From assembly GCA_946699065.1 (NCBI GenBank), contig CAMPDV010001535.1, positions 43,291 through 107,290 of the forward strand: a stretch of 64,000 nucleotides of DNA. The letters are read 5' to 3'. This document shows positions 5,591-47,349 of this stretch, piece after piece; position 1 is the stretch's first letter, and each line of letters opens with the position of its first letter. The notes under the pieces were generated by a model. That model was not told the DNA's origin, ran no database searches, and saw only the letters and a program-made list of their open reading frames with translations. A program made the position numbers and the translations under genes. This DNA is from Loxodes magnus. Taxonomy: Eukaryota; Ciliophora; Karyorelictea; Loxodida; Loxodidae.

Positions 5591-5617
5591 AAATTTTTAG
5601 TAGATAATAATAATAAA

Positions 5618-11583: not shown

Positions 11584-11849
11584 AAAAATGTTTAATATAT
11601 ATATGTTTCTTAAGAATGACTTCATAGAGAATCTTAATTTTAGGAAAATAAAGATAAGACATTAAGCATTAATCCTATATATAGTAAATAAGTATCCGTA
11701 TAACAGTTAAATTAAAAAATGATTTTTTTTCAATAATCGAAATCTGAAAATAATAAACTTATATTCATATTGTTTATGAAAAATACCGCATTTATTTTTA
11801 AAGTGCAAATAATCGATATGAGAGTGACTGCTTATTAGTAAAAAATTAA

Positions 11850-14440
11850 CTTTATTTTACAAAACTTCCTTAACATTTGTAAAATGTTCAAAATGTAAAC
11901 TTACTTATTGCCTCATGTTATATACCAACGAAAGAAATTACAAATATAGATAAAGATATAGCATAAAAAAAATGGAGAAGAACATTCGTCTTTCTAAGAA
12001 ACAACAAAGAAAAACAAGAAAACAAGTGACGAACGAGGAGCTAAAAAAGCAAAGACAGGATAGAGAATCTAGCTCGTCTTCAAAGGAAAAAGTAATGGTT
12101 GGTCCGAATGAACAATAAAACCCTGAAACCAAAAATAACAATTTACTCCAAAGCGAAATCGAAAAAATGAAAGAAAAAATTGCAAAATATGAAGAGATAT
12201 TTTTTAATCAAGGAACTAATGAATTACATAGAAGATTAAAATAACGAACTGCTAATTCTCAAAAGTTAACTGATTAAAAATTCAGTAGTAACAGAAAATT
12301 AGCTTTATGAAATGTCGTAAACTAACTTCAATTAATCACAAAGAATGACCATAGAAGAAGATTAGCACAAAATACAACATTAAGAAAAGTAAAATTAAGT
12401 AAAAAATGATACAAACATAAACAAAAGAATTGATATGCTGGAGAAAAAAGTTTTTTAAAAATAGAAATTAGAAAAATGATATAAAAATTGTTGGTACTGC
12501 TAATCTTGGTATCATTTACTAAGACATTGTAAGAAATGAAGATAACTCAAGTATAATGAAGATTAAAGGACCTGAAGAAACTTAAACAAACTTTGGATTA
12601 CTGAGTAAGGAATATATAAATAGAAACTATGAACAAGAAACTAAGAGAATCCTTCTTGGTAACCGTCCACTTTAAAAAAAGGTCGTGGAGAACAACCACG
12701 GAAAAAAACTTGTCAGCAGAAACCTGGTTGAAAACCCAGGATATGCAAACTTTAATTTTACATTTAGTTAAAATAATAATACTAATAATAAAGATATAGC
12801 ATATAAATACCTCAATAGTATTATAAATTTTAGCAGTCAAATATCTGCTACTTTTTGTGGTGACTTTAATGCTTTACTTCCTAATTATGATAATAACTAA
12901 TCTCTAATAAATAAAAATACTTAAAAATTCCAGATTTTATAATAGCAAATGAATCAATCATTTGAAATAATTAAAAATCTAGCCTTTTCATCCTTAGACT
13001 CATATTTGATGCTATTGCAATTATTATTTATTAGCAACCTAGCATTAAATTCTAATTATTTTGCAGATTTTCTAGTTATTCAAGATTCTGGATTAAATAC
13101 TGATAATTTCCCTTAAAGTATTACCTTGAAATAAAACTAAAAAGATATAGATAAGAAAAATAATGACATTAACTCTAGAAAATGTCAAAATTATAGGATT
13201 TACAAACAAGAAACTAATAGTAAAGTGTTTTATAGGACATTTTTAATAGTTTAATAACTTTACCTCAACACTTTTAACTTTTATGCCAATTCTCTTAAAA
13301 TCTAATTAATTGAAATCCATAAACTGCACTTTGTCTTAAAATTGATCAAAACATTATTGCAAATTACTAAGTTTTCTTTGAAAATATTACTTAAGAAAAG
13401 TAGGATAATATTACATATTAGAGAATTTTTTGCTTACATGGATATTATAATTAGGAAGCTATGAGTCTTTATCAGGTTAAAATAAATTTTATAAGCATTT
13501 TTAGACAAATTTTGGAAATGGAAAAAAGCAAACAAAAAACATAAATAACTCAACAAAAAGCCTTAAATAATGTTCAACCAAGCGAAAAACTTAATTAATC
13601 CAAAATTCGAAATAAAATGAATTTTAATTCTAGGTAACAATGACATTTTATAGAGAATTGAGAGAATTCAGTTTTTGATAAATATTTGAACTTAAGTTAA
13701 GAATAAACTGATACTTCAAATAGAAAAATTGATGAATTATATAAAAATAAATCTTTTGTATTAAATAAGCTAAGTCAATTTTAAAATAAACCTCTTTTCA
13801 CTGACTGAGAATTCTAAAAGTAATAAAAAATTAGCGAATAATAAAGCCATAGGTAATGTAAAGCGGAAATTGTAAATATGCGGGTGAAGAATTGCAATAA
13901 ATAATTGCAAGTTTTGTCAATAATATTTCAGAACATTTTCTGTATTAAATGCAGTGAAGAAATGAATATTCTTCCTATTTTTAAATAAGGATGTAAGATT
14001 TCTTGACGAAACTAACGTCCATTCTTTTACTAATCTATTTATCAAAAATATATGACAAACAAGTAACTCAATAATTATATAAATACATTTAGATAGAAAT
14101 ATTTATCATCCAACTTAATTTGGATATATTCGTAAACATCTAAAACCTAACAAATTTGAAATATCTAATAAATTATTGATTTACATCATAGTTGGTCACA
14201 TTAAGAGCAAGTAATAACTAGCCTAATTGATTTAGTGAAATGTTCGATACTATATCAAGAAGAATACTATTTGCTCATTTAAGAAGACTAAGACTACTCT
14301 TAAACTTAATTCTTGTTTTAGATCGTTTTATGGCATCAGTGATGCTAATTTTTTTTATTGAGAGTTATCTTACAAGATCAATTTAAACTAAAACAGAGTT
14401 CTATAAGGAAGTAACCTAGATCAAATATTGAAACTTTATA
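11850..14440 (+). pseudogene. LINE ORF2 (LINE-2, copy 1): AP-endonuclease and RT parts, interrupted
   Basis: Left of an inserted element, 11,890-11,965 reads LIASCYIPTKE...DKDIA; right of it, 12,803 onward reads YKYLNSIINF...TFCGDFNALLPNYD. GDFNA is the metal-binding core of APE-type endonucleases of LINEs, and the preceding Tyr-x-Pro block is the usual neighbour. Near 14,225-14,350 follows MFDT-SRR-LFAHLRRLRL, a diverged relative of the RT palm MFDSIHRKLLFGHLRRLRL at 44,090. The RT is then interrupted by ORF1-type units at 14,467 and 15,367, and its 3' part resumes at 16,118. Frame shifts and TGAs are frequent. It is the host of at least three nested insertions. Confidence 0.65.
11966..12788 (+). 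mobile_element. Complete ORF1-only element, family A (A4), with 15-bp target duplication
   Basis: The unit is absent from copy 2 (53,155-53,170), which has the uninterrupted site. It is flanked by the 15-bp direct repeat TAAAGATATAGCATA (11,951-11,965 and 12,789-12,803). Inside, ATG 11,973 opens MEKNIRLSKKQQRKTRKQ with ESSSSSKEKVMVG; after a frame shift near 12,215 comes ELMNYIEDQNNELLIL, and near 12,487 the knuckle CWYCQSWYHLLRHC (CX2CX4HX4C). The 3' end has hairpins CGTGG/CCACG and CCTGG/CCAGG and a (TAA)n-like run. So an 823-bp unit with an ORF1, a structured tail and no RT has transposed, probably using the enzyme of a LINE partner. Confidence 0.8.
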
Positions 14441-14466
14441 ATATGATATAGTTACATAATAAAAAT

Positions 14467-15360
14467 ATGTCAGTATTCAAATCAGGATTTTTCGCGGCTC
14501 CAAATAGCAAAAATTATAGACATCCTAGAGAGGTAGGGAAAGGGCACCAAAAAGATCAACCATAAAATTGAATCTCTCACTTCTGAAGAAAAGTCTAGGA
14601 AATTTGTTAAAAGTATTATGCGCTCGGAAGTCTCGAGTCTCATCACAACGCAACTAGTTATGATTAGCTGATAAAGTGACACTGGACCTCCTGGAAAATG
14701 TCAAAAAAATATAGAAAGCCAATAATAGACTGATGGAAAAACTTGAAATTACAGAGGAAATTGAATCGAGACTCATGACTTAAGAAAGAGACCTTAACGC
14801 ATTTTAAATATTTCACAAGACCAGAACAATTAATTATGGCACATCAATAGAAGCAGAAAGAATTTATCAACAAATAGAAGAAAATCAACAAAAATTGCAG
14901 CGTTAAATGGACCTACATGAATAAGGAAATTACCAGTGATAATCGAAGAAGAAAATAACTAAAGATTTAAACCTGAACGAGAAGCAAAGAGATGTTATTA
15001 TTGTAACTCTCGAACGCATATATGGAAAAGATGTTAGAAAACTCAAAAATTTAAATTATAATACTGAAATTACTGAAAGAAGTTGGAAAAAAAGAGTTGA
15101 GACAATAACAACTAAAAAGAGAAAGAGAAAGATTATATTGCAGCAAAAAACGGAAAAATACACAGATAAAAGATATCAATCCTTATCTAGGTGAAAAAAT
15201 ACCTAAAGAACATTATGGAATGCAAGGATAAAAGTGTAGAAACATGTGATTTTTTATATTTAGCCTCTAGAGAAATCTAGAGGTTGGTGGGAAAGAGATT
15301 GAAATATCTGCAAGAACACCAAGCATTTAATTTTGTATTTGTATTTATATTTATTATAAT
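14467..15360 (+). pseudogene. ORF1-like protein, family C (copy C1)
   Basis: Starts MSVFKSGFFAAP, equivalent to FKKGFYTTS in the copies at 27,634 and 31,032. After frame shifts the middle reads NRLMEKLEITEE...RLMTQERDLNAF, matching DRLMENLNKQ...RLMSQERELSAF at 31,370-31,455. The knuckle CYYCNSRTHIWKRC lies at 14,993-15,034, with TGG for its Trp; the 31-kb copy has TGA there. Just after it, FKLQY-TGA-NY at 15,065 aligns with QYW encoded by TGG in the other two copies. The unit is inserted in the RT of LINE-2 and is followed within a few bases by family B. Confidence 0.65.
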
Positions 15361-15366
15361 AATAAA

Positions 15367-16117
15367 ATGACACCTAAGAAACAATCCTCTTTTGACCCAT
15401 TTATTAAAAAATAAGAGAAATAATAAAACCTATCAGAATAAGTTCCTTAATTAGCTTAAGAAAAATAATTTAAGGAAGCTTAAACATAATCAATTTATTA
15501 ACGAATAACTAAATACAATACGAATTAAAATAACAAAGATAAAGGATAGAAAACTAGAAAAATTGATTTAATAGCTGGACTATAATTCACAGCTTTAGAA
15601 GAAACTTTATATAAAATTTAATTGTAAATAGTAGGTAAATTGAATTATACTGATAAATAATTATTCAAGAATCCTCCAATATTTTAATTCCTATTTTCTT
15701 AATTTTAATATCAAATAAAGCAACTTTAAGAAAGGTAAGAATAATAACAAGCAGTAATTTAAAAATCATAAAATTAGTAATCCAGCATTCCAATGGAAAA
15801 TTAAATCTGAATAATAATAATAAGATGCTAGCAAGATTAATTTCTATCGTAAAAAGATTTAGTGCTATAAACTAGAAGAATCATTGCTGAAAAAGATGCC
15901 GAGAGATAACTGAAATTGAAAGAATTAATAAGAAATAAATATTAGACGGTCTTTTCTGCTTTTGATTAGCAATGACAGAACTAATAAATAGGAAGAAATT
16001 TATAATTAAAAAATATAAGAATATAATAACAATTGAAGAAGAAACCGGAAGGAAAAATGGAATTTAGGGGAGATAAGGATGATGGACTAACGAAGTCTTA
16101 CGAAATCCTTTATTTTT
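15367..16117 (+). pseudogene. ORF1-like Gln-rich protein, family B (copy B2)
   Basis: ATG 15,367 opens MTPKKQSSFDPFIKKQEKQ and the frame stays open to about 15,805, where IPMEN replaces IPMEIE: a one-base shift brings TGA at 15,811. The basic C-terminal block of the intact copy at 1,794 is recognisable only in another frame (15,840-15,940). The tail hairpin at 16,076-16,110 (GGATGATGGACT/AGTC-TTACG) is cut off at the duplication edge. Decayed relative of B1. Confidence 0.6.
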
Positions 16118-21535: not shown

Positions 21536-24500
21536 ATGTCAGAACTTTAAGCTCCAGTAGATTTTATGACTTCACCAGATAACTTAGATACAAATTTGTA
21601 GTCGTAAAGAGATTAACTTAAAGACCTTAATTTGGAAAAATCTGGTTTTGACATGAAAGAAAAAGTTTAAGAAATAGAATCTCCGTCTAAGAGGATAAAA
21701 TAAAAAGCTTCTCCATTTATTAATGAGGTTGAAGAAAACGAAGGAATGTTCAACATTTTTAAAGAAACAACTTCAGGTGAAAGATTTCTTTTATTTGTTG
21801 GAACAGTATTTGCTATATGCATAGGTGCTATTACTCCACTTTTTGCAGAAACTTTTGGATAGGTTTCAAGCAGTTTAGGACCAACGTCTACTAGATTCAC
21901 CATTTACGAAGATATTAGAGATGTTTCTGTTAATCTATTTAGTATATGCTTAGTTCAACTGCTTTTCAGCTTTATTTATACCACTTGCTTTGTTTATGTA
22001 TCCGTTCAAATGTCTATAAAAATGAGAAACAAGTTTTTATAAGCTATTTTAAGCTAAGAGTAAGCATGGTTTGATAAATAGCCAGACATAAGTGGTTTAG
22101 CTACTAGATTAAATATAGACTGTGATCAAGTTTAGAAAGGTACTGGAGCTAAACTAGCTAAAATCATAACTGATTTTAGTTAAATGATTGTTGGTTTTGC
22201 ATATAGTTTCTATAAAGGATGGCAACTTGCTCTTGTTCTTTCAGGTTTACTTCCTTTCTGCATCGGGGCAGGATATTGGTGGATTAAAAGACTACAAGCC
22301 ACAAATAAATTGAAAAAAGAAGCGTATACGCAAGCAGGAGGATTAGCAGAAGAAGTTTTAGGTAACATAAAAACAGTAGCAGCTTTCAATGGATAACTGA
22401 AAGAATACACCAAATACGAAAATTCTCTTCAACAAGTCTTAAGTAAATCTCTTAGAAACAACTTTGTGTTTGCAATAGGAGGAGCATTATTCTTTTTCTT
22501 TTTTATACTAGTCCATTGCTTAACTTATTTTGCAGGAAGTCACTTTATTGACTTGGAATTAGAAATAAGAGGTGAAAAGTATGATGCTGGTGTTGTTTTA
22601 GCCGTTAATCTTTGCATGATGATAGCTTGCTTTTCTCTTACAATGGGACTTCCTTGTCTTAAAGAGTTTTACGATGCACTCAGCGCTAGTAAAAACTTAT
22701 ATTCCATTATTAATAGAAAATCATAAATTGATTTATATACTGGAAAGATAGTATAGAAGCTCGAAGGAAGAATAGAGTTTAGAGATGTTTGCTTTAAGTA
22801 TGAAAATTAAGAAAATTACGTACTAAATCATTTCAATTTGACTATTGAAGCTGGCCAAACTTTTGCTTTGTGTGGTCCATCAGGATAAGGAAAATCAACG
22901 GTCATTTCTCTTCTATAAAGGTTTTATGACCCTAATTCAGGAGAAATCTTGTTAGATGATTAGAATATTTAACTTTTGAATTTCTCTCACGTAAGAAATT
23001 TCATTTCCTTGGTTGGCTAAGAACCAGTACTTTTTTCAGGAACAATTGAAGATAATATTAGATTTGGTAGTTTGCAAGCAACTGAAGAATAAATAATACT
23101 AGCAGCTTAATAAGCTTAAATTCATAGCTTTATTTTAAGCAACAAGGAGGGATATAAAACTTTTATTAATGCAGGAGGAAGTAACTTATCTGGTGGCTAA
23201 AAGTAAAGAATAGCCATTGCTAGAGCAATTGTAAAAGATCCTAAAATTCTTTTACTAGATGAGGCAACAAGTGCTTTAGATAGAGAAGGCGAGAAAGAAG
23301 TGTAAAAAGCTATAAATTCAGTGAAATATGGAAGAACTGTTTTTATAATAGCTCATAGACTTGTAACAATTTAAAGCGCGGATAAAATAGGTGTTATAAA
23401 TCAAGGAAGAATATGGCAACTTGGAACACATTAATCTTTGATGGCAGAAGAAGGTATTTATAGAAGTTTAGCAGCTGCTGATGAAATGGCTACTAAAGAA
23501 AGAAAGAAGAAAGAGAAAAAAGTATAAGTATAACAAGATGAAATCTTTTTGCAAGAAACCAAATCTTTAACTTCTATTAATGAGACAAATGAACAATAAA
23601 AAAATGCAATTTCAAGAAGTTTTGCTGTAATAAAAAATAAATTATGGTTTTTAGTAATAGGATGCTTAGGTGCTTGTGGTAATGGATGTGGATATCCAAT
23701 GTAAGGAATGCTTATGATTTAAAGTATGGAAACTTTAAGTGAGTTCGGAGATGATTATGAGAAGAAAAATAATATGACCAGTTTGTTTTGGTTTTTGCTT
23801 GCTATATACTTACTATTAATATTTTTTACCTAAGTTAGTTGCTTTGGATCATTTAGTGAACATTTAACTGACAAGCTTCGAAGATTATCAATGCAAAGTG
23901 TTCTTTACTAAGATGTTGGATACTTTGATCATGAGAAAAATAGTTCAATCAAAGTTTGCTAGAGACTTTAAGATGATTGTGTGAAAGTAAATGGGGCTGC
24001 AGGTTAAGTTTTTGGTACAATATTTATGTCTTTATTTGCAGTTTTTGGAGGCCTTGCTGTTTGCTTTATTTTTTGCTATTGAGTTGGAATTTTAATGATA
24101 GTGAGCATTCCTATAAACGGTCTTTTCATAATTACTGCAGCTAGAATTGAGTTTTTAGGAGAAGTAGGGAATACTTCATCTTAGGAAACTTCACAAATTG
24201 CAAGTGAAGCTATAGTAAATGTCAAAACAGTAAAATCATGCAATAATGAGTAATATATTGCATAAAAGTTCGCAGAAACTCTTCAAAAAAATAGCGTTAA
24301 TTCATAATATCAATCTTGCTCAAGTGGGATTGTTTTAGGAATGGCTAGATTTGTGATGTGGGGTATGTTCGCTATGTTTTTTATATTTGGAGCTTTTATT
24401 TAGAGAGATGATGAATCATTCAAATTTAAGGAAACAATGATTGCTTTAATGTCTGCTATTTTTGGATTCTTAGCTATAGGAGACACTCAAATTTATGCTC

Positions 24501-25324
24501 CAGACATGATCGGTGGAAAAACAGCTGCGGCGTCAATATGGAAAACTATTGATTAGAAACCAAAATTAACTGGATAATTAGAAAATAAACCTCAGATAAC
24601 TGGAAGAATAGAATTCAGTAAAGTCGAGTTCAAGTATCCTACTAGGCCTGATCAATAAATTCTAAAATCCTTTGACTTAATTATAGATGAAAATAAAACA
24701 ACAGCTTTAGTTGGCTATAGTGGAAATGGAAAATCAACTATAATTTCTTTAATTTTAAGATATTATGAAATTGAAAGTGGAACTATTATCTTCAACACTT
24801 CAAATGGACCTTAAAACTTATAAGATATCAATATATACCACTTGAGGAGTTAGATTGGACTTGTAGGATAAGAACCTGTACTCTTCTAAGGGACAGTAGC
24901 AGACAACATTTAATATGGAAGAGAAGGTGATATTGAAAAAATTAAGGAATGCGCTTAAATTGCTAATATCAACCTTGAAAGATGTCCTTTAGATAAAGAA
25001 GTAGGGTTGAAGGGAAGTCATGTTTCCGGAGGAGAAAAGCAAAGAATCGCTATAGCAAGAGCAATATTTGCAAATCCAAAATTAATGCTATTAGACGAAG
25101 CAACGAGTGCACTAGATAAGGAAACGGAAATCAAGGTTTAGGAATCAATATAAGCAGCTTTTAAAAATCGCACAGTTGTAGTGATAGCTCATAGACTAAG
25201 CACAATTAAAGAAGCAGATTAGATTTGCGTTATAAACGAGGGTAAAGTTGTTGAGCAGGGGACTCATAATGCTTTACTTTCCCATGAAGGACTTTATTAT
25301 CGTTTAGTCAGATCTATGGCATGA
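21536..25324 (+). CDS. Full-length ABCB-type (multidrug/P-glycoprotein-like) transporter
   Basis: A single-exon ORF of 1,262 codons from ATG 21,536 to TGA 25,322 with TAA/TAG as Gln. Layout: cytosolic N-terminus (1-95), membrane domain 1, nucleotide-binding domain 1 with Walker A CGPSGQGKST (about 446), signature LSGGQKQR (about 550), Walker B ILLLDEA (about 571) and H-loop IIAHR; a charged linker (about 655-695); membrane domain 2; nucleotide-binding domain 2 with GYSGNGKST (about 1,060), VSGGEKQR (about 1,163), LMLLDEA (about 1,184) and VIAHR. Every ATPase motif is intact, so it should use ATP to export hydrophobic or conjugated substrates at a membrane; the substrate is unknown. Codon 849 (24,080) is TGA at the Trp of the GW-x-L-type motif of membrane domain 2; the equivalent in domain 1 (KGWQLAL) is TGG. 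ABCB proteins are usually 1,200-1,300 residues. The N-terminus of Walker A2 has Tyr for the usual Ser. Confidence 0.95.
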
Positions 25325-25730
25325 ATTTCTAACATTTTAACTTTGAATCTTCGTTTATTATAAAAATAAAAAACAAATAAGTTAAAAATTAATAGCTAAG
25401 CCCTAATCTTTATAAGGTTAAGTGGTTTTTAATAATCTTAAGCAATCTTTCTTAATTTTATTTTATGTAGTTACTAAGAAATATATAAATAACTCTCTTA
25501 ATGATTAAGAAAATCCTTTATTCAAAGAGCTATATTAAATAAGCAAAGAATTAAATATAAAAATTAAGTAATTTATAAACCTTACAAATTTGAACTGTAT
25601 GTTTATAGTTTATAATATAGTGTATCTCTTTAAAAATATAAAGATAGAAATTAACCAAGATAATTATGAGAGATATTTATAATTTTATTTTTTATAAATA
25701 ATAAAATTAATTAAATATAATAAAATTAAA
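25325..25730. other. 3' flank of the ABC gene, AT-rich
   Basis: AT-rich sequence with poly-A/T runs and no ORF or repeat that I can support. Its last part (25,703-25,730) is the left target duplication of the next element. Confidence 0.5.
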
Positions 25731-26033
25731 TCGATAATTGAAAAGATGGAGGGAGCTGAGAATCACCTTCGTGACAACACTTTCTGGTTTTATGGCTAGG
25801 AACAAGTTCCTTTCCTGTCGTTGAGAAAGTCCCTGGTCAGAGTTATTTTCTGAAGGGAACGCTGTCTTTGAGATTATCCGCTCTTGGTAGGGGCTTGAAG
25901 CCTGGCTGCTCATATGGAGCTCCCTAGCAGCTGTGTCTGGAGCACAACAGGATATCCCCGTTATTCCATAAAAAGAGAGCGTCGGGTCGTGCAATCGGAA
26001 AGGAGTTTCCGGTCCAAAAACTTTTTTAGTTGA
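25731..26033 (+). mobile_element. SINE-like unit S1 (copy 1)
   Basis: A GC-richer unit of about 300 bp (GGAGCTGAGAATCACCTTC ... GGTCCAAAAACTTTTTTAG) that recurs inverted at 43,278-43,575 and, diverged, at 52,476-52,790. It is flanked by a long AT-rich direct repeat (25,703-25,730 and 26,032-26,060, near-identical). Internal blocks such as GGAACAAGTTCC and CAGGCTTCAAGCCCC (minus strand) suggest a folded RNA. The latter resembles a Pol III B box, which would make the minus strand the RNA strand; this is unproven. The ORF across its minus strand has no homologue and is taken as incidental. Confidence 0.65.
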
Positions 26034-27633
26034 AATTAATTAAATATAATAAAATAAAATTTAGACATTTCTCTAAACAAAATAGTTAAATCTAAATTCT
26101 AAATACTAATAAATTACATATATTTATTCTTTCTATTTTAATTTAAAAATTATATAAATATTGTTATTATCTAATAAAGCTTTTTTAAATAAAATTAACT
26201 AAAATAAAAAAATTCAGTCAGATTAGTAAAAAATAATTAAGGGATGATGCTAACATTGTATTAAGAAAATCTATAAAACTTACCTATTTATAAAAATAAT
26301 AAAACTATTTTTATGATTTTATTTAAACTAATATAGGATATTTTTAACTATTATTCTTAAAATAATAGCATAATATTTCTTATTAATAAAGATATTTTTA
26401 AAAATGCTAGTAAATTATAAAAGTTTTATATAGTTAAAAAAGTAAAAATTTACTAATTTAGAGTTTTAAAGATTTTTAAGAAATTAATTAGAAGAAAAGT
26501 ATTAAGAGATTGTTAAAGATGTATATGTAAAGATAATCTTGTCTTAATATAAATTAAACTATTTAAATTATTAAAGCAGATAAAAAATATTTAATAAGTT
26601 AAGAGTTTTGTCAAAAAAATGCAAGAAAATATAAACCAATTTTCTTAAATTTATAAATACATAGATTTATTTTTCGTTATAAAGCATAATTAAACTTTGT
26701 CAAATAAAATTATAAAAATAACTAAAAAGTTAACTTTTTAAAGAAAAATAAAGATTTAAGTTTCTTTTGCTGGAAAAATGTATTAAATTAATTTTTTTTA
26801 AGTTAATCTAGAAATAGATGAAAAATAGATAAAGTAATATCTTTTTTATCAAACATTAAACAAATAAAAATAAAAATATTATTTAAATAAAAATAACTAA
26901 AATTTTCTTCAATAATGTTATTTGTGTAAATTATTTATTTTAAAAGTAAATAAAATTTAGAACATCTTTTAAACAATTTTTAAAGAGTCTATTAATAACT
27001 TTAATTACTAGATAAAAAATAAATTTAATATTTAATCTTCTTATTAAAAAATATTATCTTAAAATTAAAAAAGTAAACTAATTAATTAGTTTTACAGATT
27101 TAAGTTATAAAATGAATGGAATAAAATAATTAATTATTATAAAGCAAAATATAAATTAAAATAATCTTAATTAATAATTATAAATTTAATTTCATTAAAA
27201 GTATTTTAGATATTTCTAGGTTATAATAATTTAAGTTATTTCAATAAAGATTTTATTTTATCTTAGAATATATCTAAAATACTACTTTTGTAATTCATTA
27301 TTTAATGCAAATTTAATAGTTTCTATAAAAAATTATCTTTAAAATTGTTTAGTTATCAAATTCAATCTTTAAATAAACATCTTTCAACCTCAGCACTTAT
27401 TAGAATTTAAGTTTTATTGAAATTATTTAAATAATTAAAAAAGAATGCTTGATTAGCTATGATGAACTTTAAAAATTAATTATTCAATTTTATCTAAAAA
27501 TAAAGAAAATTGACATATAAAAATTTAAAAGCACGTAATAACTAAATAGTTATACTAATAGTTATATTTCTGTAATCTAAATATAAAGATATTTATATAA
27601 AAATATAATCAATAACTTGTGCAGATTAAAAAA
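26034..27633. other. AT desert
   Basis: About 1.6 kb of extreme A+T content with runs of AATAAA/TTTATT. No repeat, RNA gene or protein-like frame is seen in either strand. Confidence 0.5.
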
Positions 27634-28545
27634 ATGCTAGAAGGGTTCAAGAAAGGCTTTTATACCACCTCCTAAAAAGGGAAGAGAAAGTAAGAACCCT
27701 CATCTTTAATTCATACATCTTCTTCCTAGAAATAATCTTCTTCTCAAAACCTTCAAGAATAATAGACTCAACTAGGAACTTCCAGACCAACCTAAAAGAT
27801 GGGGTAAAAGCGCCAAAAGGCTACCCCCGATGACACCAACTGAAGAGGAAGGACCTAGAAAGGTGCTGAAGACGCAAGAAGCAGCAGCCGTGCGAGAGTT
27901 TGCGATGCCATAGTTCCAGGAAGAACAGGCATAAATTTTAGTCGCATTCGCTGACCTGAAGGAGGAAGTAAAGAGGTTATGATTAGAGAATAGAGCTCTA
28001 AAAAATCAAGTTACTGAGCTCAAGGAATGGAAAGAAAGCTTCTGGGAAGTCTACGATCGAGAGAAAAACACTTTCTTCAGGGAAATGGGATTGCTGCAGC
28101 AGAGAACAACTGTGCTTGAAGAGAACAGCAAGTAGCAACAGTAGTAAGAATTCAAAGTTAGGACAATTCAAGATCCAATGGACATAGAAGGAACTACTAC
28201 ATTACCGAGGAGTCCAGACAAGAAATGAATTAAGAATAAGCCAAGATACTTTGTATGCAAACAAACTGGACATAAATATAGACAATGTTAGAAATTGAAA
28301 TTAATTAAATAATAGTACTGGAATAGAAAATAATAAGAAAAATAATAGTACTAATTTTAGGATAAGATTAGACGAGAATTCTGTAACTAATTTTATCCGT
28401 CAGGAGGTCAAATCTACAAACCGAAGTGGTACACAATCCAAGGCTACTGAAGAAAGAGTTCTGAAGGAAGCTGGTTCTAGCCAGGTTATCAAACTAGTCC
28501 TGTGAACACGAGGTTGAAAGTCCTCCAAGTTCACTAAACTCCAAT
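27634..28545 (+). pseudogene. ORF1-like protein, family C (copy C2)
   Basis: Starts MLEGFKKGFYTTSQKGKRKQ, then a Ser/Gln-rich region. A frame change near 27,830 leads to MTPTEEEGPRKVLKTQE, LKEEVKRL and a coiled coil with ENRALKNQVTELKEWKESFW, then DPMDIEG and a knuckle-like RYFVCKQTGHKYRQC with the first Cys replaced, then KQQYWNRK. Internal TGAs occur in the coiled coil and before the knuckle. Base use is clearly richer in G+C than the flanks, with CAG/CAA mixed with TAA/TAG for Gln. The tail with a GCTGGTTCTAGCCAGG hairpin is at 28,468-28,490. Related to the better copy at 31,032. Confidence 0.6.
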
Positions 28546-28789
28546 TTAAACTTTTTAATTTAATTTAGTACAACATAACTTCTGCAGATTTTAGAACCTA
28601 ATTTTAGGCACTATCATTAATTTATTCTTTATTTCGACTATAATTTATTGAGTTTTTTATTTTTTATTTTTTATTTATATTAAGAAAAATAATAAAAAAA
28701 TAAAATATGCATAAAGGTTTTCATTATAATTAAATCTATAAAATTTTAATTATAATAATTAATTAAAAAAGATTCACTTAAAAAAGTTA

Positions 28790-29625
28790 AAGTTAAAAAG
28801 CTTTGTTAAAGCCTTAGTAGTCAGCCATCTAACCTATTCTATCAGCTTGTCTCCATTAGTTTGTCTTGAATTTCTACTAGGCTTAGTTAGGCGGTGTAGC
28901 ACTTCATTAGCGCACCATCCTTTAATCGTCTGAATAGTCTTCATCTTGCATTTAGCGTTCCTAATTATTTCTCCAAGGATTAAGATTTGAATTAAAGAAT
29001 TTTTTTCTATAAATTTTTCCGCTTTATGTTGGATATATCCTAAATAGTTTTCTAAAAATATCTTATTTATTCTTTCTTTAAATTTCGCTTAGTTAGTAGC
29101 AGTATTTTCATTGGTGTTATTTATTGCACACGTAGTATTTTATTCTTCTTTTAACCTATTATTCCTGTAACACTTATTTAATTTAAATTTACTACTTATT
29201 TTAAATAAACGTTTATTGTTTATTTTAATTTGAGGCTTCATTTTCTATTTCCATAGGATCTGATTAATTCTGTTAAATCGAAAATAGTGTAACCTGAATT
29301 TATTATTAAATTTAAAGAATTCTTTGCTCCAGTTTGTCTTCTATTTCTTATGATGATTAATATTGTTTCTCAAGTAAAGACGTTATTAGTTTTTTCTAAT
29401 TTTTCTACTTTATCAGTGAGGTATCTATTTTTAAACATAAACTCTTTTAATGACTTAGATAATATTTCTATTTGAGTTTGTGTCGGAAGTTTTTTTAGTT
29501 CTGGATTTCCAAGTGGTTAATGTTCGTCGTATCAATCATATTTCTCACTTTCACTCATTGTAATTATTTCGCTTTTTTATTTTTTAAATGTTTTGTTCAA
29601 AGTTCTGTTATTTCTTAGAAGCCAT
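28790..29625 (-). pseudogene. ORF1-like protein, family F (copy F1)
   Basis: From ATG 29,625 the minus strand reads MASKKQQNFEQNIQKIKK. In another frame, near 29,560, it reads MSESEKYD-x-YDEHQPLGNPELKKLPTQ followed by a coiled-coil-like segment with two TGAs. PMEIENEA near 29,255 and a knuckle-like YYVCNKQHQ-x-KYC near 29,130 (x = TGA, where family C has Trp) give the usual ORF1 order. A further frame gives the C-terminal IKGWCANEVLHRLTKPSRNS (about 28,935-28,870), which is also present, damaged, at window position 1-240. The 3' hairpin (GGTGCGCT/AGTGCTACACC) lies within that last part. Several shifts are needed, so it is decayed. Confidence 0.45.
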
Positions 29626-29784
29626 TTTATATTATTTAAATAAGGTTATAATTACAATTAAAAGAATATAATTATTTTAATTATTTTAATTAAATTATGC
29701 CCCTAAACTTTATAGATATTATTTATTTCTTTAAATTTATTCTAGAATTTTTCTAATTTTATGTACTATTTTAAATAATTGAAA

Positions 29785-30232
29785 TTAAAGAGGGTGGAAA
29801 TGGGACCTGAGATGCACAAGGGACCTTCAGCAGGTTTAAAGGGACTTGCGATGAAGATGCAATCCCCCGTGCTGAGAAATAAGCCACAGAAAGGCTTAAA
29901 TACCTTCCCTCAACAACTTGTGCATTCATCCTTGGACTTCCCAACTAAGGGACTCAATTACACCTCCTACTAACTCAGACCGAGATGCCACCTTGGAGTG
30001 ATCTCTCCACCTCTTAGGAGCTACCTAGGCAGATTGACGGTTTCTACCAGTTGAAGACGGACTGGATGGCGATATTCGCCTATAAAGCCGAGAAATGGGT
30101 CCAGGCGAGACGATAAGAAAGCCCAAAAAGACATAAACAAGAAGAAAATATTAGTGATGATGTGCACTTAACACACATCAGTTAGGCATCTATTAAGATA
30201 GCAGTACCTTCCTTAACACTTAATTTAATTTT
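29785..30232 (+). mobile_element. GC-richer insertion with about 30-bp target duplication
   Basis: A 0.45-kb island flanked by direct repeats of about 30 bp (29,755-29,784 and 30,233-30,263, three mismatches). One frame reads MGPEMHKGPSAGLKGLAMKM at its start; another reads MPPWSDLSTSQELPRQIDGF near 29,985 and YKAEKWVQARRQESPKRHKQ. Base use is like the family C ORF1 genes on either side, so it may be a 5'-truncated or internally deleted member. I recognise no domain. Confidence 0.5.
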
Positions 30233-30263
30233 AATTTTATGTACTATTTGAAATAATTAGAAA

Positions 30264-31031
30264 ATTTTATCAAACATTTTTCTTTAATACAAGAATAAAA
30301 AATAATTTAAAATATTAAATTTTTAGTTTACTATCTATAAAAGTTTAAATAAGTAAATAAATTAAATCTTTAAAATTGCCTTACTTTGAAATTTCATGTT
30401 TAAATTTTAAGAAAATAAAACTAAAAGAAATATTAATTATTTTAAATCACTAGCTGTGATTAAAATAATTTAGAAATATAAAATAAATGAATTTTCATTA
30501 TCGATAATAAATATCTAAAGAATATACTACTATCTTATTACATATATAAAATAGTATTTACAAAGAAAAATTAATTATTGCTATTTTTTATATAATATCA
30601 TTATACTAATATTTGCAAAAAATTAAAAAATTATAAATCTAAAGATGCAGTTGTAAAATATAAAAAATAAGTTATATAACAGATATAATTTGATAAGAGT
30701 TTAAAATCACTTTTATTTTATCAAGTTAAAATAAAATAAAATCTACTATTTTAATTAAAACTTTAAAATAGTTACAAATTTAATCTTAAAATAAATTATA
30801 AGTTATTATTTTTAATGCACTTTTTACAGCTATTAATAAAATATTATCAATTTCATTATAGCTAAGTTTATTTTTAAAAGTTAAATAGAAAGATTAACAT
30901 TTTTTTTCTTTATTTTGGCACTAATTTTAATTATTTTTAATGATAAAAATTGTAATAAATTTAATAAGAAATAATGATTACTTTAATAAACGTATATAAT
31001 TTCTTATCTTTAATAAAGAAATATAAATAAA
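30264..31031. other. AT desert
   Basis: Extremely A+T-rich sequence between two retroelement insertions. Nothing recognisable is seen. Confidence 0.5.
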
Positions 31032-31995
31032 ATGGTGCAAAGTTTCAAGAAAGGCTTCTATATCACCTCTTCCTAAGCTAAAATGGAAGGGAGGAAGCAG
31101 GAAACCACTTCTTGGATGTCGTCTTCTTCACACTTTTAACCTTTTTCTTAATATTAACAACCTGGAATTTAACAAGAAGAACAGAAGAAGGCTCAGAAAA
31201 GCAAGCATACTGAAACACCGACTTCACTAGAGAAGCCTAGAAAGCAGGCAAAGTCTGTTTTACACCAGGAGGTGTCGGAATTTAATCCTTCTGGCCAGAT
31301 GAGCATGGAACAGCTCATCCAAGTTGTACTAAATCTCCAGGAAGAGGTCAAGAGACTAAAGAAGGACAACGACAGGCTAATGGAGAATCTGAACAAGCAA
31401 GAGGGAAATCGAGAAAGACTTATGTCCTAAGAAAGGGAATTAAGTGCATTTTGGAGCATATCACAGAGTCAGAACTGATAATCCTAAAATTAGCAATAGA
31501 AACAGACGGAGCTGGACAACAAGCTTGGAGAAATAGAAGAGAAGGTGCAACAGCAAATGAAACTTAATGAGCAAAGAGGTGATCCAATGTTGATAGAGGT
31601 GATTGACAAGAAGAAGAAGGTTAAGCCAATCAAAGTAGTTAAAAGGTGCTACTATTGTAATTCAGAGAAACATCTATGAAGAAGATGTGAATAATTCCTA
31701 AATTTTAAGAACCAGTATTGGAGAAAATAGAGGAAGCAGCAAGGGTAGCAAAAGAAAATGACAACTATAACAAAGGAAAATTAGAGAGAGACTATTCATG
31801 AACTAACTTGGAAATATTTATAGGAAGAAACCTTTGCTGAACTGAAGACATTGTTAGAGACAACAAGAACAAATGGGTGGGAGAAGAGTAGAGACCTATA
31901 AACTTTTTTTTAATCCGGAGCAATCTGGGATCGGCATGAAGAGGTGAAAATCCTCAAAAATTGCCAACTTAATTATTTTAATAATAATAATAAAG
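31032..31995 (+). CDS. ORF1-like protein, family C (copy C3, best preserved)
   Basis: One frame runs from ATG 31,032 through the whole unit. MVQSFKKGFYITSSQAKMEG is followed by a Ser/Gln-rich region and a long coiled coil (LQEEVKRLKKDNDRLMENLN and RLMSQERELSAFW). GDPMLIEV comes at about residue 185, then the CCHC knuckle CYYCNSEKHL-x-RRC at about residues 207-220, then FKNQYWRKQRKQQGQQKK. Two TGAs are in frame (31,476 and 31,677). The second sits at the Trp of the knuckle, which is TGG in the copy at 14,993. No in-frame TGA marks the C-terminus before the tail (a GGAGCAATCTGG-type hairpin and (TAA)n at 31,976), so the stop is unclear. Likely an RNA-binding ORF1 protein. Base use is GC-richer than the flanks, suggesting recent insertion. 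Confidence 0.65.
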
Positions 31996-33523
31996 AAATA
32001 TTAAAAAAATTAATTTTTCTTAGTAAAAATAATTAGATGGAATAAATAAGTATAAAGTAGTTAAATTTATTAATTTTTTAATAAAGTTTATAATATAATA
32101 TTCTTTTAATCGTTTTTTTTCAAATTTTAATAGTTTTTAATAGCTAAATAATCAACTATTTTAATAATTAATAAATTATTTAAATTCTATATTAAAATTT
32201 TTAAATATATCATTTACTTTGATTTAATCAGTTAAATTAATTAATTCCTATTCTCTTTTAATATATTTTTAATTTTCCAAAAAATTTATTTTAAGTAGTA
32301 TGTTAAATTTACAATTTTTTATTATTTTATGCGAAATTCTCAAAAAATAAAAACGGTCTTTTGATATTATTCTAATATATTTATAATCTAGAAATGTATT
32401 GAAATATTTAATATATTAGCATTATATGTAATTATTTTTAATTATTTTCATTTTCATAAAAAATCTTAAAAATTCATAATTTTCTATTTGAGAAAGACTT
32501 TAAAATAAAAAATTGCAAGAAGTTAGAAATTTTAGATGAATTGCCTTAAATTTTCTTGCTTAAAATTATTTTTAAGTATAATTTTAAGTTTCTTAATTTT
32601 ATAAAAATTTAATTAGAAATCCATTAAAATTTAATAAATCCCTTGAAATTCTAAATAATTTAAAAAGTACAAGTAAATAAATGGGATATATGCTATTTAA
32701 TTTTTCTATTTTATGTGAATTAAACTCTGTAAATGAATATAAACAAATTAGATCTGATTCTTTTTAAAAATTTGAAGTAGCTCAAATTTTCATTAATTGT
32801 TTATTTATTGTATTTACGAAATAAATTTTAAGCTTTATTAACATAATCTATAAGATCCATCATGTTATTTAAATATTTAGCTAATCTTAAAAATTTGGAG
32901 CTTTTACTTTTAAATTTAATTATTTGCCTTAACTTATGAAAACTTTCTTAAAATTTTGTAAAAGCTATTAGTCTTTTTAAATCTCTTTGATCATGTTATA
33001 ATTTAATTATTTTATTGTTAATAATAAAAATAAAATAATTAAATGTTAAGATATAAGCAATAACTAACTAATCTACTTAAAGCTTCGATAATATATATTA
33101 AAAATGATACCTATACTTATTTAAATTAATATTAATAGTAATTAATTAAATATAAAATTTATTTTTATATTTAAAACTTTATTCCCATTATTTTATTTAC
33201 GCTATTGCTTAAAAGAATAAATTTATTTATTTAATAAATACAATTTTTAGAGTTGTTAAATTTAAAGCTATACAAATTAATAATGTTTTATATTCATTTT
33301 TATAATTATAGTAAAAGTAGCCTATTCTTCAAAGTTAAACTTATTGCTATTTATTATTTAAATTTTTGTTATTTGAAAGATGTATAAACGCTTTGTTGCT
33401 GCAATGTATTTCTAATATATTTGCTATATGCATATAATTTTATTTCATTTTCTAATTTATAAATTATTAACTTAAATTAATTCAATTTTTACAATCAAAT
33501 TCTGTTTTATTATTATCAAATCA
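31996..33523. other. AT desert
   Basis: About 1.5 kb of very A+T-rich DNA. I find no repeat shared with the rest of the window and no convincing protein. Confidence 0.5.
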
Positions 33524-33880
33524 AATGGATGACGGACGAGTCAGCCAAACTACTAGGTAATCTAGTGCAGTTTATACTGCATTGCGAGTAATCTCGCACT
33601 AGATGCTACCACGGGGAAGGGTGGATAAGCTCTGTTGAGACGTACTTAACTTACCCCGAGGGTTCTTTCCAGCAGTATGAAAGTTTGACTGACGGGCCTT
33701 CTAATTACCGACTTAATAACTAATTATTATTTAGACTTTATTCAAGAAGACTGAAGCATTTGACTCAAGATTTTAGAATAATTTTTAATAATAAGATTCC
33801 CCATTTGGAGAAGCTGACATAACTCATCGGACCTCTAGAATTTAACAAGAAACATAAGAAGATTTTTTAATATTAATGAA
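33524..33880 (+). mobile_element. SINE-like unit S2 (copy 3, tail lost)
   Basis: It matches the unit at 19,379 over about 330 bp, with most differences being single substitutions (for example CCACGGGGAAGGGTGG for CCACGGGGAAGAGTGG). It ends at GATTTTTTAATATTAATG, before the shared hairpin, so the tail is missing or replaced. Confidence 0.65.
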
Positions 33881-34289
33881 GGATAAAGTATTTTATAATA
33901 AACTAATTGCTTAAGTTATAACTCCTTTTAATTAAATGTCAATAGTATTTTTACTAAAAAGTAATTCATACAAAGTAGGAACTAGAATTTATATTCAGAA
34001 GGTTACATTAAATTTAGTTTATAAATAGAACTATAAATATCTTAACCGATGTTAGAAAACTGCTTTTTTTATCTAATTTCAAATAAATATTTTCCTAACT
34101 GTATACCATAGAAACTATGCTAAATAATAAAATTTAGTAAATTTTGAAGTGAAGTTAAAAGTAACTCACATAATACTTTAAACAGATTTAACTTCATCTT
34201 AAAGGATGGTTAAATGATGGTAAAATATACCGAATTAAAATAGTTATACTCTTTATTTTATAAAGATAAGTATTTTTCTTAAAATTAGA
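33881..34289. other. AT-rich 3' flank of the minus-strand MACPF gene
   Basis: Nothing recognisable; it would hold the 3' untranslated region and terminator of the gene ending at 34,290. Confidence 0.4.
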
Positions 34290-35951
34290 TCATAAAAATG
34301 TTAATTTTAAAGTTAAGAATCGTAATATAAAAACTTCAGCACAGTCTACCTCCACCCAATACCCAAATAAAAAGTGTATCCTCCTGAAAATCCAATTAAT
34401 TTCTTGTTTTGCAAATGAAAAAGTTTTATCGAAAGGTTCGTTACTGCAAAGATTCTGAACTTCAAAAGGTGTTTATAAAACTCTTTATTAATTTGTTTCT
34501 ATTATTATTTTTTGTATGGATCACCCGTCTCCTTGAACTCTCATTTGTGTTATATTTTCGTCTTTTTATAATTTAAATGTGATGCTTTGATTGGATGAAT
34601 AAATTTTTCCTATAGGGACTCTTTAAAATAATTCCCCTTCTTAGTTTCTTAGAGTAATTTAAGTACCCTAAAGAAACATGTATAAAAACGCAGCATCTTT
34701 ATTGCATCCAGCAAAGGAACTTAAAAGTTAAAAAAAGAAAGTGATTGAATCTAAAGTGTAGGCATTTGATATATTCAAATCAATATAATCAGTTCCATTA
34801 TAATTAGGTTTCCCATTTAAATTGGTAACACTTATAATATCGCTTAATTCCTTTATCTTTACTATCTAAGAAGTGTTCTAAGGAGTGTTCTAAGTAATGT
34901 TGGAAGTATAGTTTTAGTTAATTTTTGGAGGTTAAAGATAAGCAGCTCTATACAAATAAGCATCAATGAATTGCTTTTATAATAAATCAATTTCCTAACT
35001 TTAAAGTTATGGGAAATTATCTTAGTTAACTAGTTCTCAGATAGGTTTCATTTGGTATCTAATAGGAGTGGGATTAGTCTTCACATTTTAAAACCATTTT
35101 TATTAGTCAGTTAGAGGAACAGATCCTTTTTGTATTTTAGTTTTCTTATATATTCGTGAACTAAATGTTTAACTTTAAGAAATAGCTTGATTTAAATTTT
35201 ATTAGGAGTTTTCCTAATAAATTTAACTAAATCTCCAACCATTGTTAATAAATGTCTAACTAGCTGCATAGTCAATATCAATACTTTACTTTTGTAAAAA
35301 CTTCATATCTTCTGCTTTAATATCATATCTTTCTTATAAGATAGCTCCGTATGTTATCTACCAAATATAGAAGCTCCCATACTTATCATATAGCTAATTT
35401 ATTGTAATGTTAGGGTTAGTAGAATTTACTAATTTATATATGGATTTTTTGAAACTGCTTGTCAGATTATGATTTTAAAAGTCTATTGATAATTAATAAG
35501 CCTCACAAGCTTATTTTACTTGTATGCTTGAAATACTATAAGCTTTAGTGTCTTCTACATATTCTTAATACTTATCATTATAAGAAAAAGCAGAACTAAA
35601 AAAATTAAATCTTCATCATGAACTTTAAGCAACTGCATATTGCCATCCACTGAAATATTTAGAAAATTTAGAATCTCTTCATTCATAAGCACTATTAAAC
35701 TATTAAACTTGGGTATCAAATGAACAAGCAGCTAAATCAACTACTCAAGCTTTATCAGGAATTAGTCAGAGTTCATCCTCAGTAGTTTATTACTACTAAT
35801 AAGTGAAATCGAAAATGTTCAGTTTCAGATACTGCTCAAACGTGCTTTAATCTAGGTAACAGTTGTAAGAGTCGATTCCTTGGCTATAGAATCTGGGTAG
35901 AAATGGAACACTTTAAACGATGAAAGGCAAGATAAATATAAAATATTTCAT
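34290..35951 (-). CDS. MACPF (perforin-like) domain protein, paralogue 2
   Basis: One frame of 553 codons from ATG 35,951 to TGA 34,290 (1,662 bp). Signal-peptide-like start MKYFIFILPFIVQ, then SVPFLPRF. The MACPF hallmark LYDKYGSFYIWQITYGA is at about residues 185-201 and NPTPIRYQMKPI-x-EL at about 293-307. The C-terminal module MRVQGDG-x-SIQKI matches the gene at 8,438. TGA codons fall at aromatic positions: residue 62 (35,768) aligns with a TGG in copy 1, residue 305 (35,039) is TGA in both, and x in QGDG-x-SI is Tyr in copy 1. One extra base near 34,405 puts the last 27 codons out of the family frame, so FSGG is read only in the neighbouring frame; this may be a sequencing or real lesion. 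Likely secreted, pore-forming or membrane-binding, by family. Confidence 0.75.
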
Positions 35952-36339
35952 TTATATAGAATACTAAAAAATAGAGCTTAAATATATGATTTATGGTTAG
36001 CTTTTATTAGATTTATATAAATATATGAGCATAAATAATCCATACATTTAGATTAAATAATTTAATAAGATATGATAACTTACTCAAGTATCTAAGTTAA
36101 TAATTATTAATTTATGAATACTAATTATAAACTTAACTACAGTCTCTTTTAATTTACACTCTTAGTATAAATCTCTATTTCTCTCAATTGCAAGTTTATT
36201 AGGATTTATTTATTTTAGTTAGAAAACATATCTGAGCAGGTTATTATAGATTATGCTTTAGTAATAGAGTTTAAGTAGTTTAAGAAATGCTTAGCTCTTC
36301 ATTTTATTATAAATCAAATAGAATACAAATTTAACTTTG
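35952..36339. other. Upstream region of MACPF paralogue 2
   Basis: AT-rich, probably holding the promoter of the minus-strand gene. No defined element is seen. Confidence 0.4.
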
Positions 36340-37479: not shown

Positions 37480-39068
37480 TTTAATAATAATAATAAATGA
37501 ACTTAGTGTCAAATAAAAGTTTGCTATCCCTGGGCTTTCTTCCAGGTACCAGCAGACGAATTTTTTTACGTGGTAAGTCTTCCCCCGACCTTTTTTGTAA
37601 GTGGATGGTTACCACTATTAATTTTCTTTGTTGCGTATTAAAAGTTTTTGTCTGTAAACTCCATTTTCAGTAATTCCATAGTTTATTTAAAGCTCTTCAT
37701 GTTTTCTGCTCTTCTCTTATCTGTAAATTCTTTCATTCTTTGCAGTGTCTTAGTAAGTGATTCCGTGAATAGCAATACCAACAATTTTTTATTTATTTTT
37801 CAGTGTTCTTCTTTTTAAAAATTTTATTTTCCAGTTGTTCAATTCTTTTAGTTAAATCCATACTAGCCTATCTTAACTAGGTTTATTTTATTATAAGAAA
37901 AAATGGAAAGCTTCTTGTAAAAAACCTCTTCTCAAAAGGATTCATCTTACAAGCAATAAAATATATTTTAAGTACTCCAATTGCTGTAATAAGAAAATTT
38001 CAACCTCCTAAGAACAGTTCAAGAACTAGAAAGAAAAATAGAGCACCTGATGTACAATTAATAAGAATAAATGAAAAATTAAAATAAATAGACAGGAAAC
38101 AACAAAATAGAAGAGCTAGAGAAAAAATTCGACTAATTCGCAGAACTAACTGAAAGCATATTTTTCCAAAATATACAGGGGAATGATCCTATGGATGTGG
38201 AGAAACAGCCTGCAATAAAAGATATTCCCTATAGGAAAATACTGCGATGCTGATACTGCAAGAGACCAGGACACAAAGTTAGAAGCTGCTTCTAATTCCA
38301 ATAAAAACAGAAAGCAGAAAATTTAAAGCTATGAAGAACCATAAGTAACTATATTGCACTATGGAAGGAAGAATTTATAGAAGAAAGATGTACGCAGGGC
38401 ATGAAATTCTAGAAGACGTGATTATAGTAGGACAAAGAAGAAATGAACAAATGCTTGGAATAAAGATTGATTGAAGCAAGATTACGAAAATAAAAAAGGG
38501 AGAACACAGCACAGATAGATATGTGCTTCGAGAAGAAGACCCAGAAGAAGACTGGAAATGGAAATTTTAACAAAACTATTAAACTTTAAAAAGTGACGAA
38601 CCTTATTGATAGGTGGAATCACTATAATTAATTATTATTATTATGTATTCTAAAATTGTGTTGGAGTTTCTTCTTTAACAATGCATTGAGATTATTTAAA
38701 ATTTGATTATGACATTTCTCATAATTACTATTCTGTAACTAAACTACTTTTTATTAGCTAGCTTCTCAATATTTTTAATTCGTTGTTTTAATCTTCGATG
38801 CAATCCATAAGTTCTCGAATTCGATCTCCGTAATTGAATATCATTTCATCTTATTTAGTGATCATTGCTTTCAATTTTCAATTTAATCTTGAAGAAAGTC
38901 GTTACTCTAAATTTGTGGATTAATTGACTCAGCTGGACCTATCATTATTTTTCCTTCAGGTGAAGAGCTAGATTCTTATTATTGTTTTTATTTTTTTAGT
39001 TCCTCTTTCGTCGCTTGCTTTCTTGCTTTCCTTATTTAGTTTTTTGAAAGACGGACCTATTATTCCAT
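37480..39068 (-). pseudogene. ORF1-like protein, family A (copy A5), split by insertion
   Basis: N-terminal half on the minus strand from ATG 39,068: MEQQVRLSKNQIRKARKQAT, the run ESSSSPEGKIMIGP, then after a shift FNYGDRIRELMDCIEDQNNE and LVTEQQL. It breaks at about 38,645. The C-terminal half resumes at about 37,885 with MDLTKRIEQLENKIF, the knuckle CWYCYSRNHLLRHC (37,796-37,755) and TGAs at spacings equal to those in the 12.5-kb copy. The tail with hairpins and a (TAA)n run ends near 37,480. The order and sequence of both halves match the continuous copy at 11,966, so the gap is the family D unit at 37,903. Confidence 0.65.
37903..38706 (+). CDS. ORF1-like protein, family D (copy D2, frame intact)
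   Basis: ATG 37,903 to TGA 38,704, 267 codons in one frame. Start MESFLQKTSSQKDSSYKQQ, a coiled coil with LLRTVQELERKIEHLM and ELTESIFFQ, then NDPMDVEKQ at about residue 92. The knuckle C-x-YCKRPGHKVRSC is at about residues 116-129, with x = TGA at 38,251 where family A has TGG. Two more TGAs (38,332 and 38,419) follow; the first is also TGA in the copy at 41,885. The C-terminal part ends in KKTQKKTGNGNFNKTIK. The unit interrupts the minus-strand family A gene, so it is younger than it; its 3' end is the (ATT)n run at 38,620-38,635. Likely a nucleic-acid-binding ORF1 protein. Confidence 0.6.
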
Positions 39069-41884: not shown

Positions 41885-42612
41885 ATGCAAAAAGCTTATT
41901 CTAAACAGTATGCAATCCCAATCAAATTACGATTATCAAAGCATACCCAAAGAGCTCAAAGCTATGCAATAGGATAATTTTAAATTTTTAAGAAACTCAT
42001 AAGAACTAGAAGGGAAAATCACTTACCTAATTTCTAACACATAAATGCTAAAGAGTGAAAATTCCAAGCCAGTCAATCTGAGAATTTAATAAATAGAATC
42101 TAATTTCAGTCAATTAGCGGAATTGGCTGAAAACTTATTCTAAAAATAAAACAAAAAATTACCCCATGGATGTGGAACCAAATCTTCAACCAGCAAAATT
42201 CGATAGTTAAGAATAGAAAATAATGCTGATATTGCAGGAAATATGGTCACATTTTAAGATGTTGCTGAAAATTCTAATAAAAATGAAAACTTGAAAGTTT
42301 TAAGTAATGAAAATCCTTAAGGCAATCCATACTACGCCCCAGAAGGTTTATTATCCAGAAAAATATATACATTGGAAATTAACTTTTGAAAGACATCTCA
42401 TTTGCTCAATAAAGAAGAAATTTGAATATGCTTGGAATCGAACTAGATTGAAGCAAGATACCTTAAGGGCGAACAAAGTACTGCAAGATATGTATTCTAA
42501 GAAGAAGACTCAGAAGAAGATTGTAAATGGAATAGTACTTAAGACGATTTTAAACTTTAAATTTTTTGAAAAGTAGCAAACCAAATAAAGGTGAAGTCAC
42601 GTTAATAAATTA
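41885..42612 (+). pseudogene. ORF1-like protein, family D (copy D3)
   Basis: The family start is at ATG 41,885, but the matching frame is shifted: QSQSNYDYQSIPKELKAMQQ, DNFKFLRNSQELEGKITYLI and SQLAELAENLFQ follow. PMDVEPNLQPAKF (42,163) is in another frame, and the knuckle C-x-YCRKYGHILRCC-x-KFQQK (about 42,207-42,268, x = TGA twice) in a third. A TGA shortly after aligns with one in D2. The C-terminal part from 42,307 reads EKYIHWKLTFERH and ends KKKTQKKIVNG, matching the end of D2. Frame shifts make it a pseudogene, though its order is complete. Confidence 0.55.
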
Positions 42613-45440: not shown

Positions 45441-45635
45441 GCAGTGAACTTAACGTGATTAACTTTCCAATTATGAAAGTGGGTTAAATCAGTCGAAGGA
45501 AATATGACCTTTGAAAGCGATCCTAATAAAGGCTTGAAATTGAAGATTTAGCAAAACATCTTAACTTTAATTCAGAGATGAATCTATTAAAAGTGAAATC
45601 ACAAAAAACTCATTATCATATTATTTTTAAATAGA

Positions 45636-46475: not shown

Positions 46476-46496
46476 TTAGTAGATAATAATAATAAA

Positions 46497-47290: not shown

Positions 47291-47349
47291 AAAAATAACA
47301 TATTCCTAATACTTTTATTTACTAGAAAATCTATATTTATCATAATTCT

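Follow-up and report, generated by a model that had tools for sequence, protein, structure and literature searches.

A UGA codon that probably serves as both tryptophan and stop in a repeat-filled stretch of ciliate-type DNA

Can UGA be read as tryptophan inside genes and still end them? The question is raised by a window of 64,000 bases (contig CAMPDV010001535.1, positions 43,291 to 107,290; no N; GC (guanine plus cytosine) content 25%), which looks like AT-rich, repeat-filled, ciliate-type DNA. It contains an ABC transporter gene, the only gene with strong homology, as well as MACPF-domain genes and many repeats, a number of which have open reading frames (ORFs) carrying a zinc knuckle. In the initial annotation UAA and UAG were read as Gln and UGA as both Trp and stop. 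We consider this code probable: in a ciliate-type nuclear genome, UAA and UAG would encode Gln, UGA would encode Trp inside frames, and UGA near the 3' end of the message would be a stop. The sense role of UGA, as Trp, is sustained by the knuckle ORFs, in which TGA and TGG share columns, the TGA:TGG ratio is 23:8 and an excess of third-position differences is seen downstream of TGA; the argument from the ABC gene proved to be one codon off, the MACPF genes are mixed and the stop is that of one gene. Unless stated otherwise, UAA and UAG were read as Gln and TGA was flagged separately.

A scan for the pattern C..C....H....C gave 12 matches, from which one antisense match inside the ABC gene and the near-identical duplicates at 46,270 and 47,023 were dropped. 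The nine knuckles kept comprise six with one spacing (group A), two with another (group B) and one with its own. Group A lies at 38,248-38,352 (+ strand; TGA at 38,251, the aromatic knuckle position, and at 38,332, the column that is invariably TGR, that is, TGA or TGG), 42,224-42,328 (+; TGA at 42,227 and 42,308), 12,489-12,593 (+; TGG at 12,492, TGA at 12,573), 37,679-37,783 (-; TGG at 37,780, TGA at 37,699), 6,153-6,257 (+; TTC at the aromatic position, TGA at 6,237; duplicated at 47,023) and 1,489-1,593 (+; TGA at 1,492, TGG at 1,573). Group B lies at 14,993-15,091 (+; TGG at 15,023, TGA at 15,065) and 31,647-31,745 (+; TGA at 31,677, TGG at 31,719), the second with a long open upstream part. 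The ninth knuckle, at 5,391-5,480 (+), has TGA at the aromatic position (5,394) and is duplicated at 46,270. The exchange of TGA at 38,251 and 5,394 for TGG at 12,492 and on the minus strand at 37,780 had been described correctly. For group B, the reciprocal pairs 31,677/15,023 and 15,065/31,719 were also as described; of the two further TGG copies said to match 15,065, one was found (31,719), and the near-identical duplicate of 15,065 has TGA.

With columns numbered in codons from the first Cys (column 0), column 28 holds TGA in five and TGG in one of the six diverged group A copies. Column 1 holds TGA three times, TGG twice and TTC once; column 16, TGA four times and TTC twice; column 35, TGA once, TGG twice, and TAT, ATT and ATA. 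If TGA is taken as Trp, column 28 joins the four zinc ligands and one Glu as the only invariant columns of group A, six in all. In group B both columns that hold TGG are mixed (column 10, TGG/TGA; column 24, TGA/TGG). Over the two sets of blocks, five of the six TGG-holding columns also hold TGA.

These comparisons show UGA behaving as though it were a synonym of UGG in the knuckle ORFs. The ungapped blocks contain 15 TGA-TGG pairs, a number reached in none of 20,000 trials in which codons were shuffled within copies, and five mixed TGA/TGG columns where the null gives 2.0 on average (p = 0.0165). Their TGAs are confined almost entirely to the coding frame (23, compared with 0 and 4 in the shifted frames). 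In the four copies that have TGA in common at column 16, differences over columns 17-35 are distributed by codon position as 43/34/66 (p = 0.001), and in three of these four copies the distribution over columns 36-49 is 11/14/24 (p = 0.017). Protein-level constraint thus seems to have continued past the common TGAs, which a stop would not allow. In addition, TGA makes up 23 of the 31 TGR codons (74.2%), and the A-ending member makes up 114 of 153 codons in six other pairs (74.5%); this equality suggests that UGA is used as an ordinary synonymous A-ending codon. The copies are related by descent, which makes the p values from shuffling and from binomial tests too small, and this must be counted against the reading; the knuckle argument rests on the pattern and not on the p values.

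Domain searches with knuckle pieces translated with TGA as Trp or as X (five pairs) changed Pfam scores in both directions. The Trp version raised zf-CCHC at 38,203-38,352 from 15.6 to 19.0 bits (cut-off 20.8), zf-C2H2_10 at 42,179-42,328 from 13.7 to 17.4 and a Lin-28A-like match at 12,444-12,593 from 12.5 to 12.8; a domain of unknown function (DUF) was gained in one pair and zf-CCHC at 31,602-31,751 was lost. All these scores are below the cut-off and were therefore not used as evidence. A PHROGs search with two knuckle ORFs gave no match. The longest-looking knuckle ORFs (31,002-32,000 and 37,903-38,652) have a Gln-rich start, coiled-coil-like by eye, followed by the zinc knuckle; this arrangement is, we presume, reminiscent of ORF1 or Gag-like proteins. 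A coding-potential scan trained on the ABC gene was not used because its frames at 31,085 and 37,905 disagree with the knuckle frames there.

The assignment of UAA and UAG to Gln can be followed in the ABC transporter gene (ABCB type; 21,536-25,324, + strand; 1,262 codons with UAA and UAG as Gln), identified by Pfam PF00664 (2.2e-83) and PF00005 (2.7e-59) and by ABCB1 in PDB (1.8e-209). TAA stands at both Q-loop Gln residues (VGQEPVLF, 23,012 and 24,863) and at both Gln residues of the SGGQKQR signature motif at 23,189, which bears out the initial annotation on this point; the second ABC signature motif has CAA. The TAR codons (TAA or TAG) seen at conserved Gln in this gene are TAA, with none seen for TAG separately. 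In total the gene has 59 TAR and 24 CAR (CAA or CAG) codons. When TAR codons were masked and the gene was compared with two bacterial relatives, Gln was the commonest partner in three of five matches (9/39, 5/11 and 7/23), tied in one (4/19) and second in one (3/22). Two of the five matches overlap, and at about 30% identity it may be expected that Gln is commonest in only some of them.

Relatives of this gene were sought in several collections. A search with one half of the gene in the genome contig collection gave none, nor did one with the whole gene in the viral contig collection. At least 5,000 records of the plasmid collection contain bacterial ABC relatives below 60% identity, two of which were aligned. 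One plasmid record, from Phocaeicola massiliensis (OY726067.1), has an ABC-transporter-like stretch without an annotated feature; its gene table lists one feature for the whole record.

Only one gene end could be placed in the window, and it too belongs to the ABC gene: a TGA at 25,322-25,324 (+), at the expected C-terminus. GC content falls from 31.7% in the coding sequence to 19.3% in the next 150 bases. These values resemble the 33.5% and 18.6% given for Loxodes magnus in passages of PMC11441545; such a drop would fit any AT-rich ciliate. A mark of the karyorelict code is that coding UGA and UAA become scarce about 20 codons ahead of the stop; here the last 33 codons contain no TAA, TAG or TGA, although one gene cannot show depletion. 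From the C-terminus of this one gene and the drop in GC, the terminal UGA would be a stop.

The code read here is the karyorelict-type code, NCBI table 27, and as such is already known. In the passages of PMC11441545 and PMC4967479 that describe it, Parduczia sp. and L. magnus have, like the window, UAA and UAG as Gln, UGA as Trp or stop, low UGA usage, a coding GC content above that of the 3' flank and a repeat-rich genome, so that the comparison with karyorelicts made in the initial annotation fits the published features. Sense UGA is put at 0.120% of codons in Parduczia (in the relevant part of PMC4967479), resembling the 0.08% (one TGA in 1,262 codons) of the ABC gene. By analogy with the karyorelicts, an internal UGA would be read by a tRNA-Trp, and the release factor would win at UGA only close to the end of the mRNA; a model of this type is set out for Parduczia and Condylostoma in a section of PMC4967479. 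The tRNA-Trp would be expected to have a CCA anticodon and an anticodon stem of 4 bp, rather than a UCA anticodon. A more distant parallel is Amoebophrya sp. ex Karlodinium veneficum, for which parts of PMC12005148 report in-frame UAA, UAG and UGA, with UAA and UAG inferred to be Gln and UGA Trp, as here. This organism is of a dinoflagellate lineage, all three of its codons are ambiguous, and the likeness is one of description only.

A number of observations weigh against a sense UGA, and should be considered together with the fact that the evidence base is one genomic window, genomic sequence alone, with one complete gene. The most obvious concerns the sole internal TGA of the ABC gene (24,080-24,082, +). 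The initial annotation was correct in giving this gene of 1,262 codons a single in-frame TGA and another as its terminal codon; it also placed the internal TGA at a Trp conserved in the family, and this is not where it lies. In the alignments examined (five of 260 and five of 43 matched PDB sequences; ten different chains, all ABCB1 or ABCB4), the family Trp pairs with the Tyr preceding the TGA in 10/10 chains and the TGA itself is opposite Gln in 10/10. The same column in the first transmembrane domain has Lys in 5/5 of the chains taken from the 43 matched sequences. Of the two bacterial homologues, one has Gln opposite the TGA, with a four-residue gap just before it, and the other has Arg. 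In the first half of the window's own ABC gene, which reads GWQLAL, TGG is found at the family Trp. The TGA is therefore one codon past the conserved Trp position and faces Gln, Lys or Arg, and the site does not diagnose Trp. If UGA is Trp inside frames, this codon would also be read, as Trp, where relatives carry these other residues. Moreover, the gene avoids UGA: its TGA:TGG ratio is 1:9, compared with 282:72 for six other A/G-ending pairs (282/354, about 80% A-ending; p = 8e-6), and a code in which UGA is only a stop explains this avoidance equally well.

Similar doubts come from the other comparisons. In the knuckle ORFs, group A columns 14, 17, 20 and 33 (four of eight TGA columns; five of 18 TGA cells over columns -3 to 35) face mainly Lys, Asn, Gln or Arg, and a further TGA at column -4 is opposite TAA in three copies; the TGAs of these columns look like decay. 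Group B has four TGA columns, and two of them face TAG and AAG. Shifted frames of the ungapped blocks contain no TGA-TGG pair, but they hold only 0 and 4 TGAs and one TGG each, and this control consequently has little power. When the nine copies are aligned more widely, with gaps, 20 of the 198 discordant in-frame pairs set TGA against TGG, and 2/120 and 10/134 do so in the shifted frames, a much weaker contrast than that of the ungapped blocks. The two MACPF genes, at 8,435-9,979 (+) and 34,413-35,954 (-), both identified by Pfam, are mixed with respect to TGA. Their alignment (523 columns) has eight TGA sites, of which one is in both genes, one is opposite TGG, two are opposite TAA and four are opposite other codons, so that TGG is the partner in just one of seven discordant sites. 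Sites like the two quoted in the initial annotation (one opposite TGG, one common) do exist, but they are just two of the eight, and together the MACPF sites appear neither to support nor to exclude UGA as Trp. A count over the whole window speaks for a sense UGA: 11 of the 61 discordant TGA sites of coding-like frames have TGG as partner, compared with 8 of 150 elsewhere (p = 0.0065, knuckle alignments included). Against it, for TGG versus TAA alone the value is p = 0.064, and in the 18 alignments that are most strongly biased towards third positions TGG is opposite TGA in 0 of 13 discordant sites. The corresponding whole-window control for Gln (TAA against CAA, CAG or TAG) gave 63/244 and 89/385 (p = 0.45), with frame classes not separated. 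In a pairwise six-frame self-comparison without careful frame sorting the partners of TGA looked random, which we take to reflect frame-shifted or non-coding alignments.

Several of these points would suit the ordinary ciliate code, NCBI table 6, the nuclear code of Tetrahymena and Paramecium, which shares with the window UAA and UAG as Gln, UGA as stop and the avoidance of UGA in the ABC gene. With UGA only a stop, the repeats would be dead and subject to AT-biased change of TGG to TGA, and the ABC TGA would have arisen recently by nonsense mutation, such as one from Gln TAA, or would be an error of assembly. A single change would indeed turn TAA or AGA, of which the gene has 46 and 36, into the TGA of this Gln/Lys/Arg column, and the mixed MACPF sites, the decayed appearance of half of the knuckle-block TGA columns and the lack of TGG partners in the most third-position-biased alignments would all be accommodated. 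Table 6 is nevertheless unlikely in our view. It has no sense UGA and so conflicts with the knuckle ORFs, where TGA is common to four and to five of six diverged copies with a third-position excess downstream, where the TGAs of the blocks are concentrated in the coding frame, and where column 28 is only ever TGR, whereas neutral decay should yield TAG and other codons too. That UGA is never sense does not appear to hold in these ORFs.

The same arguments that make UAA, UAG and UGA sense codons would also suit the code of Condylostoma magnum, NCBI table 28, in which UGA as Trp and UAA and UAG as Gln are likewise sense, but in which UAA and UAG serve as stops too. A window with one placed stop leaves room for UAA and UAG stops; however, the only stop that could be placed is UGA, and the repeat-rich content recalls Loxodes as portrayed in passages of PMC11441545, although this likeness is no test. 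We regard table 28 as improbable. Far less probable still is a role limited to a few genes, in which UGA would specify selenocysteine or undergo programmed readthrough. Both C. magnum and Parduczia are stated, in a passage of PMC4967479, to use UGA for selenocysteine as well, but the partner codons at the common columns here are TGG and TTC, not Cys, and a search of the window at the Rfam gathering score gave no selenocysteine insertion sequence (SECIS). The reading of UGA as Trp inside frames and as stop near the end of the message is, in our view, the most probable.

The remainder of the window was surveyed for other features. Two large direct repeats, 3,273-11,613 versus 44,153-52,477 (98.7% identity) and 12,788-16,112 versus 53,149-56,459 (94.7% identity), keep the same order at a distance of about 40.4-40.9 kb. 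A MACPF gene and knuckle repeats lie within them, and both may belong to a single segmental duplication, roughly 13 kb long. The plasmid sequence collection, searched with the repeated 8.3-kb segment, gave no near match. A six-frame Pfam scan (66 pieces covering approximately 1-63,002; E up to 0.05) identified ABC-related ATPase families, MACPF, and weak CRLF2-like_D2 (0.011) and Mor (0.041) matches. Despite the many knuckle-bearing repeat ORFs these pieces yielded no reverse transcriptase, endonuclease or transposase domain, whereas L. magnus is reported to be rich in reverse transcriptase/endonuclease domains. A separate Pfam search of the three plus-strand frames of 27-36 kb gave no match. 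The Rfam and tRNA search of the window identified a tRNA-Thr (AGT) at 60,319-60,393. No further tRNA, tRNA-Trp included, and no further Rfam match at gathering score turned up.

The window suggests, from one genomic stretch, that a stop codon is acting as a synonym of UGG. The ABC gene, which offers the most obvious example, does not bear out the argument for UGA as Trp. It also presents a difference in usage. TGA:TGG is 23:8 in the knuckle ORFs, which we consider to be those of elements, and 1:9 in the host ABC gene (p = 0.0005), a contrast between eight related knuckle copies, some of them decaying, and one host gene. It is possible, and we propose it only tentatively, that in a genome with an ambiguous UGA the ORFs of mobile elements employ UGA freely for Trp, in contrast to the host gene, which avoids this codon. 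This contrast may be new, although no search was made for earlier reports. If it is true, repetitive elements would be that portion of the genome where the ambiguous code operates free of the selection by which host genes are kept poor in sense UGA. If it holds genome-wide, what an ambiguous stop codon costs host genes would become measurable against a less constrained background from the same genome.

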